From Halorussus gelatinilyticus (GTDB taxonomy: Archaea; Halobacteriota; Halobacteria; Halobacteriales; Haladaptataceae): DNA of 64,000 bases. Positions 1 to 923 of this stretch are shown in pieces. The position numbers and the translations under genes were made by a program. The notes under the pieces were generated by a model. It worked only from the letters and a program-made list of their open reading frames with translations. It made no database searches and was not told the origin of the DNA. The DNA lies in the NCBI RefSeq assembly GCF_023238445.1, contig NZ_CP096658.1:1240001-1304000 (forward strand). The letters run 5' to 3'. Each line of letters opens with the position of its first letter. The stretch's first letter is position 1.

Positions 1-923
1 TGACGACCACGCTCGGGATGGCCGCGGGCGCAATCGGCGCGAGCGCGGTCTCGCTGGTCAAGACCGAGAAGGTAGACACTCTGTACGTCGCCAACGGGAT
101 GCTCGCGGGGCTGGTCGGCATCACGAGCAACACGAACGCGATTACGTGGGTCGGCGCGCTGGTCGTCGGTCTCGTCGCCGGCGGACAGCTCCCGGTCGTC
201 TTCGAGTTCGTCGAGAAGAAGCTAAAGATAGACGACGTGTGCGCGGTCTTCCCGGTCCACGGTTCGGCGGGGGTCCTCGGGGCGCTGTTGTTCCCCTTCT
301 TCGCCGTGCCGGGCTACGGGGTCAGCTTCGTCGCGCAGGCCGTCGGCGTCGCCGTCATCGCGCTGTGGACCGTCGCCGGGACGGGCCTCGTCTTCGGCGT
401 CCTGAAGCTACTGGGACAGGCCCGCGTCAGCGCCGAACACGAGCGCGAGGGTCTCGACATCACGGAACACGGCGTGGACACTTACCCCGAGTTCGGCGGT
501 CCCGACGTGGAGGGGAGCGCAGTGCGGACCGACGGTGCCGGACTGCGGGCCGACGGCGCGGGCGACCGACCCAACGCGGGGAGAATCAAGATGGTCACGG
601 CCGTCGTCCGGCCCGACCGTCTCAGCAACGTCAAGACGGCCTTGGCGCAGGTCGGCGCGCCGAGTCTCACGGTGACGAACGTCTCGGGGCGCGGGAGCCA
701 ACCCGCCAAGACCGGCCAGTGGCGCGGCGAGGAGTACACCGTGGACCTCCACCAGAAGGTGAAAGTCGAGTGCGTCGTCGCCGACGTGCCCGCCGACGAA
801 GTGGTGGAAGCCGTCCGCGAAGCCGCCGACACGGGCGAACCCGGCGACGGCAAGATATTCGTCGTGCCGGTCGAGGACGCCTGTCAGGTCCGGACCGGCG
901 TTCGCGGACCGGAAGCGGTGTAG
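1..923 (+). CDS. Ammonium transporter C-terminus fused in frame to a PII (GlnK) signalling domain, 5' partial
   Basis: The frame is already open at the left edge (codons from base 3). The first ~150 residues have the hydrophobic helices of the AmtB/Rh family and end with the typical transporter tail [10 protein letters not shown] ~30-residue Gly/Asp/Arg linker leads into a complete PII domain starting near [11 protein letters not shown]. It has the T-loop with the tyrosine that is uridylylated in bacterial PII (RGEEYTVD) and the ATP-binding end [16 protein letters not shown] and RTGVRGPEA. Amt moves ammonium across the membrane, and PII normally blocks it when nitrogen is plentiful. In most haloarchaea amt and glnK are separate neighbouring genes, so one continuous frame is unusual. 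An internal GTG with a good ribosome binding site (509-524) could also make free PII. Confidence 0.9.
509..524 (+). promoter_or_regulatory. Internal Shine-Dalgarno plus GTG start, possible free PII start
   Basis: GGAGGGGAG lies 8 bases before an in-frame GTG at 522. Starting there gives a 133-residue protein with about 20 residues before IKMV, close to the N-terminal length of stand-alone haloarchaeal GlnK. It looks like a preserved glnK start inside the fused frame. Whether it is used is inference. Confidence 0.5.

Follow-up and report, generated by a model that had tools for sequence, protein, structure and literature searches.

In the haloarchaeon Halorussus gelatinilyticus, PII is encoded solely as a domain of the ammonium transporter, and by analogy with known Amt-GlnK complexes it probably serves as a dedicated, built-in 1:1 gate that plugs its own ammonium channel in cis. 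The window, the whole 64,000-nucleotide stretch of DNA analysed here, opens inside one Amt-PII gene, whose single reading frame gives a protein of 556 to 620 amino acids depending on the choice of start. In the window sequence, frame 3-923 of the plus strand runs without a stop from the Amt tail through the whole of a PII domain. The frame in the whole genome comprises 620 codons and includes both domains in full, while the 556-aa version begins with MLDAPLQVD. Hence the uninterrupted passage from an AmtB tail into a complete PII, which the first-pass annotation had read at the start of the window, was borne out by the open frame 3-923 and by two Pfam domains that are complete at the genome level. 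The fusion is the sole Amt and also the sole PII of this genome, which was covered as one 3.67-Mb contig, and a whole-genome search gave no second, free PII elsewhere.

According to Pfam, Ammonium_transp (PF00909) spans residues 21-411 of the 556-aa protein with an E value of 1e-92. The match covers model positions 1-399 with 311 bits against a cut-off of 23.2, and the transporter domain is thus full-length. Similarly, P-II (PF00543) spans residues 446-549 of the same protein with an E value of 1.7e-27, covering model positions 2-101 with 96 bits against a cut-off of 25, which marks the P-II domain as complete. The features of the fused gene are listed in Table 1.

Table 1. Features of the fused Amt-PII gene at the start of the window (window positions unless stated otherwise).
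Feature	Position	Strand	Basis
Start of the fused gene	upstream of the window, about genome position 1239253		
Amt domain, C-terminal part, ending with the conserved cytoplasmic tail	3..494	+	PF00909; PDB and Foldseek matches to Amt/AmtB
31-residue linker: Amt tail plus former GlnK N-extension (RPNAGRI)	495..587	+	halves match separate genes in unfused haloarchaea
GGAGGGG, Shine-Dalgarno-like, at chance level	509..515	+	direct reading; frequency inside window ORFs
In-frame GTG, proposed internal start, not conserved	522..524	+	codons in congeners and in 116 fused genes
Complete GlnK-type PII domain, T-loop intact	588..920	+	PF00543 E 1.7e-27; phmmer to H. mediterranei GlnK2 (4ozj) E 2.6e-52
In-frame ATG in PII strand 1, GGGGAG at 578-583 before it	591..593	+	structural Met/Leu position, unsupported as a start
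Stop codon TAG of the fused gene	921..923	+	

The residues on which channel and plug depend were then compared. In an alignment of 45 fusions, Amt D160, H168 and the second pore histidine H336 (VHG) are invariant, so that the twin-His pore and the conserved Asp (D160, H168 and H318 of E. coli) are retained in the fused proteins. Equivalents of GlnK R47, Q39 and K58 are present in 100% of the fused PII domains and are also invariant in free haloarchaeal PII, and the equivalent of Tyr51 is present in 95% of the fused domains. The PII of the window itself carries the equivalents of all four T-loop residues, Gln39, Arg47, Tyr51 and Lys58. Since fused and free PII show equal conservation of the T-loop, degeneration of the tethered PII was ruled out. 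The AlphaFold2 monomer model gave a confident Amt and a PII fold, with a confidence below 50 over linker residues 400-437; elsewhere, confidence was low only in the T-loop (476-500) and in a few further short segments. Both the linker and the T-loop are thus predicted to be disordered. When the model was searched with Foldseek, the Amt part matched Amt/AmtB structures and the PII part matched H. mediterranei GlnK2.

The distribution of the fusion was assessed in 106 evenly sampled haloarchaeal genomes and in a larger sample of 392, and 116 distinct fused genes were read in detail. A search of haloarchaeal genomes for Amt-PII proteins in one frame had been suggested along with the first reading of this DNA; once run, it found PII in 97 of the 106 genomes, 60 of which carry Amt and PII in one frame. 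The fusion is the sole PII and the sole Amt in 58 of the 97 PII-bearing genomes, and the pattern in the 392-genome sample was the same. Outside the haloarchaea, none of the 58 PII-bearing genomes among 77 other genomes of the phylum had a one-frame Amt-PII. In all 116 fused genes the conserved Amt tail is followed by a linker, 21-64 residues long (median 31), and then by PII. Some genomes carry, besides a fused Amt-PII, a separate free PII frame, either nearby or in a second amt-glnK pair (L048 (G181), L043 (G116), L085, L094, L105 and L122). Therefore, both forms are made from separate genes there.

PII and Amt are strictly associated in the haloarchaea. They were present together in 97 of the 106 genomes and absent together in the other 9, and all 18 PII-less genomes within the 392-genome sample were devoid of Amt. 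This exact co-occurrence holds for fused and free forms alike. Thus, haloarchaeal PII appears to serve Amt alone, with no sign of a separate requirement for a free PII. Broken remnants of Amt-PII were also observed at two loci. In L195 (G162, same genus) an internal deletion joins Amt to the end of PII, while L194 (G123, same family) is without the Amt tail and its PII is interrupted by a break in the frame. In both genomes the two parts decayed together at one place, and PII was lost along with the transporter.

Amt and PII are both homotrimers. In the AmtB-GlnK complex one trimer sits on the other with Arg47 in the pore, and release is brought about by ATP and 2-oxoglutarate. Since both partners are homotrimers, three fusion chains are expected to assemble as one channel trimer with one PII trimer below it. 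The product would be a single membrane protein, an Amt/AmtB-type ammonium channel with its own PII on a flexible cytoplasmic linker. At low 2-oxoglutarate, that is, with plentiful ammonium, the T-loops of PII would plug all three pores of the complex to which they belong. Binding of ATP and 2-oxoglutarate would make the T-loops withdraw while PII stays tethered, and switching between the docked and undocked states would take place without PII leaving the membrane. Because PII is tethered to the channel, the plug would always be present at 1:1 and in cis, with no capture from the cytosol. We infer the trimer-on-trimer assembly, the cis plugging and the ligand logic from the Amt-GlnK pairs of E. 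coli, A. fulgidus and Haloferax. The first-pass suggestion of an altered transport block gains support as far as the tether is concerned, since a true one-frame fusion would be expected to alter the blocking. After ammonium shock, Haloferax GlnK is bound to AmtB (PMC3831643).

The chief evidence against a PII devoted to Amt is that Haloferax GlnK activates glutamine synthetase in vitro (PMC3831643). If PII is a built-in gate, activation of this cytosolic enzyme would either be done from the membrane or have been given up by the tethered PII. It is also conceivable, though rather unlikely, that PII in most haloarchaea no longer integrates signals across the cytosol but is a membrane-bound channel domain only and that its remaining targets, for example glutamine synthetase, are recruited to the channel mouth; if true, ammonium entry and assimilation would be sensed and controlled in one complex at that place.

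A free PII might nevertheless be released from the fusion after translation, if a protease cut the disordered, acidic linker of the single chain in some conditions. Such release would explain how a PII that exists only in fused form could still serve cytosolic targets, and the linker is Asp/Gly-rich, variable in length (21-64 aa) and predicted to be disordered. However, the linkers differ greatly in both length and sequence, no obvious conserved cleavage motif was seen in them, and PII is lost whenever Amt is lost, so that no Amt-independent need for PII is visible. Protease release is hence considered improbable.

The first-pass annotation had proposed another source of free PII, namely that one mRNA gives both a tethered and a free form through an internal start at GTG522. 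The motif is indeed present, as GGAGGGG precedes the in-frame GTG at a distance of 6 nt from the G run and 8 nt from the GGAGG core. Two more in-frame candidates beyond that proposal were found, GTG507 and ATG591, the latter with GGGGAG 7 nt upstream. A protein started at GTG522 would have 133 aa; the length of free haloarchaeal GlnKs is about 118-132 aa. In further favor of an internal start, the genome has no other PII, and glutamine synthetase, a target of Haloferax GlnK, lies in the cytosol (PMC3831643).

Comparison with related genes nevertheless argued against it. Among nine Halorussus-group homologues, the codon at the position of GTG522 is GTG in three, GTC in three, GTT in one, CTC in one and ATT in one; it therefore differs in six of the nine, is GTC in two of the three closest homologues, and is not kept within the genus. 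No in-frame ATG, GTG or TTG was found in the linkers of 72 of the 116 fused genes. ATG was found in 9 of the 116, and a linker start codon with GGAG or GAGG upstream was found in 3. GTG is not enriched among linker Val codons: it accounts for 20% of them (33/163), against 18.5% (789/4262) of those in the Amt core (Fisher p = 0.61). In this window, GGAGG lies upstream of 12 of the 609 internal in-frame start codons, and 9 of the 36 ORFs contain such a pair. The combination of GGAGG and GTG522 is thus expected by chance and does not rise above the background.

Other observations pointed in the same direction. In Haloferax volcanii, initiation at 5'-UTRs is not driven by the Shine-Dalgarno (SD) sequence and SD motifs are frequent inside ORFs; for distal genes, SD has been proposed to support re-initiation following an upstream stop (PMC3986360). 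Such a role is inapplicable to the fused gene because there is no upstream stop. At the position of ATG591, Met and Leu occur in a ratio of 87:29 in fused PII and 30:16 in free PII, Leu thus occupying it in a quarter of the fused genes and equally often in free PII. Since Met or Leu occurs alike in fused and free PII, the residue is kept for structure. By sequence reading, no TATA-like sequence was seen at about -25 of 522 or 591, and a leaderless internal transcript is therefore not suggested. Taken together, internal starts at GTG522, GTG507 and ATG591 were rejected as a conserved feature on the basis of the codon, motif-frequency and 116-gene comparisons. So, the one-frame fusion of the first-pass annotation stands while its internal start is not supported, and there is only a very small chance that the same mRNA also gives free PII and that both forms coexist. 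An internal start private to this one species might still exist, beyond the reach of cross-species comparison. We infer that the tethered PII is not accompanied by a free form.

There is next to no chance that amt and glnK are two genes joined by an annotation or assembly artefact, since, although an ATGA overlap or a spacing of one codon in unfused relatives means that a short indel or a misread stop would be enough to join them, the same fusion recurs in congeners, in dozens of other genera and overall in 60 of the 97 genomes, with varied linker lengths and no glnK start codon left, which rules out chance, an assembly accident and the sequencing error that might have hidden a stop or frameshift in the linker.

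PII is commonly portrayed as a soluble hub that interacts with many targets. A whole lineage appears here to have hard-wired PII to one target, as 58 of the 97 PII-bearing sampled genomes have no other PII; that PII and Amt always occur together fits this view. The fusion should moderately surprise PII specialists, because most sampled haloarchaea have no PII besides it. The fused lineage is a clean natural experiment on which functions of PII are dispensable, and raises the question of how glutamine synthetase is controlled in haloarchaea without a free PII. Meanwhile, an Amt-PII complex of fixed stoichiometry would be suited to structure work.

Signalling domains added to Amt are represented by Ks-Amt5 and Sd-Amt1, where we take the added domain to signal outward from Amt, whereas the domain added in Amt-PII is an inhibitor of the channel itself. 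Like the fusion, Ks-Amt5 (PDB 6EU6) and Sd-Amt1 (PDB 8QJ3, 8QJ4) carry this domain at the cytoplasmic C-terminus of Amt. The same two proteins with the same Amt C-terminal tail are found in E. coli AmtB-GlnK (PDB 2NUU, 2NS1) and in Haloferax mediterranei AmtB1-GlnK. The gene order of the amtB-glnK pair is as in haloarchaea, and the same T-loop Arg is expected to plug the pore. In contrast to this pair, the Halorussus fusion is one polypeptide with a PII unable to leave the membrane and with no separate PII gene. The nearest solved PII is Haloferax mediterranei GlnK2 (PDB 4OZJ, 4OZL, 4OZN), whose alignment reaches the PN-G-I-K N-extension; unlike the fused domain, GlnK2 is free and is translated from a start of its own (MSDxDLPNDGGIK...). 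In the split amt-glnK operons of haloarchaea (Haloferax, Haloarcula-type), the Amt tail (RTDGG) and PII are homologous and the genes overlap or lie one codon apart, but stop and start codons are still there.

The Amt and PII components, their pairing, and other Amt C-terminal signalling fusions (PDB 6EU6, 8QJ3) are already known, and domain databases very probably list the Amt-PII architecture already. No paper describing an Amt-PII fusion was found in a literature search with poor coverage of subscription journals, and an earlier description is possible.

The origin of the linker can be traced in unfused haloarchaea. There, amt ends and glnK begins either in an ATGA overlap or with a single in-frame codon between stop and ATG, as in the Haloferax junction, which reads GAC TGA GTC ATG. 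Unfused Amt tails end with ...RTDGG... and GlnKs begin with MSDxDLPNDGGIKMV..., while the fused linkers read ...RTDGG...PNDG-IKMV and have lost the original glnK ATG of their unfused relatives. Because RTDGG and PNDG match the unfused genes, the linker consists of the old Amt tail and the old GlnK N-extension, with the stop and start gone. The alignment with H. mediterranei GlnK2 begins at the PN of the linker. As the best explanation, we propose that the fusion arose in haloarchaea from an adjacent, translationally coupled amt-glnK pair when the stop codon of amt and the start codon of glnK were lost.

A quick unrooted tree of Amt and PII required 11 changes between fused and free forms, 8 of which were forced by well-supported branches. 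Thus fusion or splitting happened more than once, and with at least 8-11 switches between the two forms on the tree, selection for the fusion is not absolute. L174 and L176 (family f2, genus g5) are long fused frames, while other sampled members of the genus have free PII. The position of L174, within a second Amt paralogue clade whose other members are free, suggests that it was fused independently. With 11 changes needed and L174 placed in that clade, a single clean origin was not borne out, and repeated fusion or fission of Amt-PII is likely from this tree.

A motif search for a recurring linker peptide, entered as SSSELRSDGG, returned no match. By reading, the peptide R/E-SRSSSELRSDGG and its variants were seen to recur in linkers of different genera, sometimes twice per linker (L016, L030, L053, L074, L091, L114, L176 and L190), and may represent a recurring in-frame insertion.
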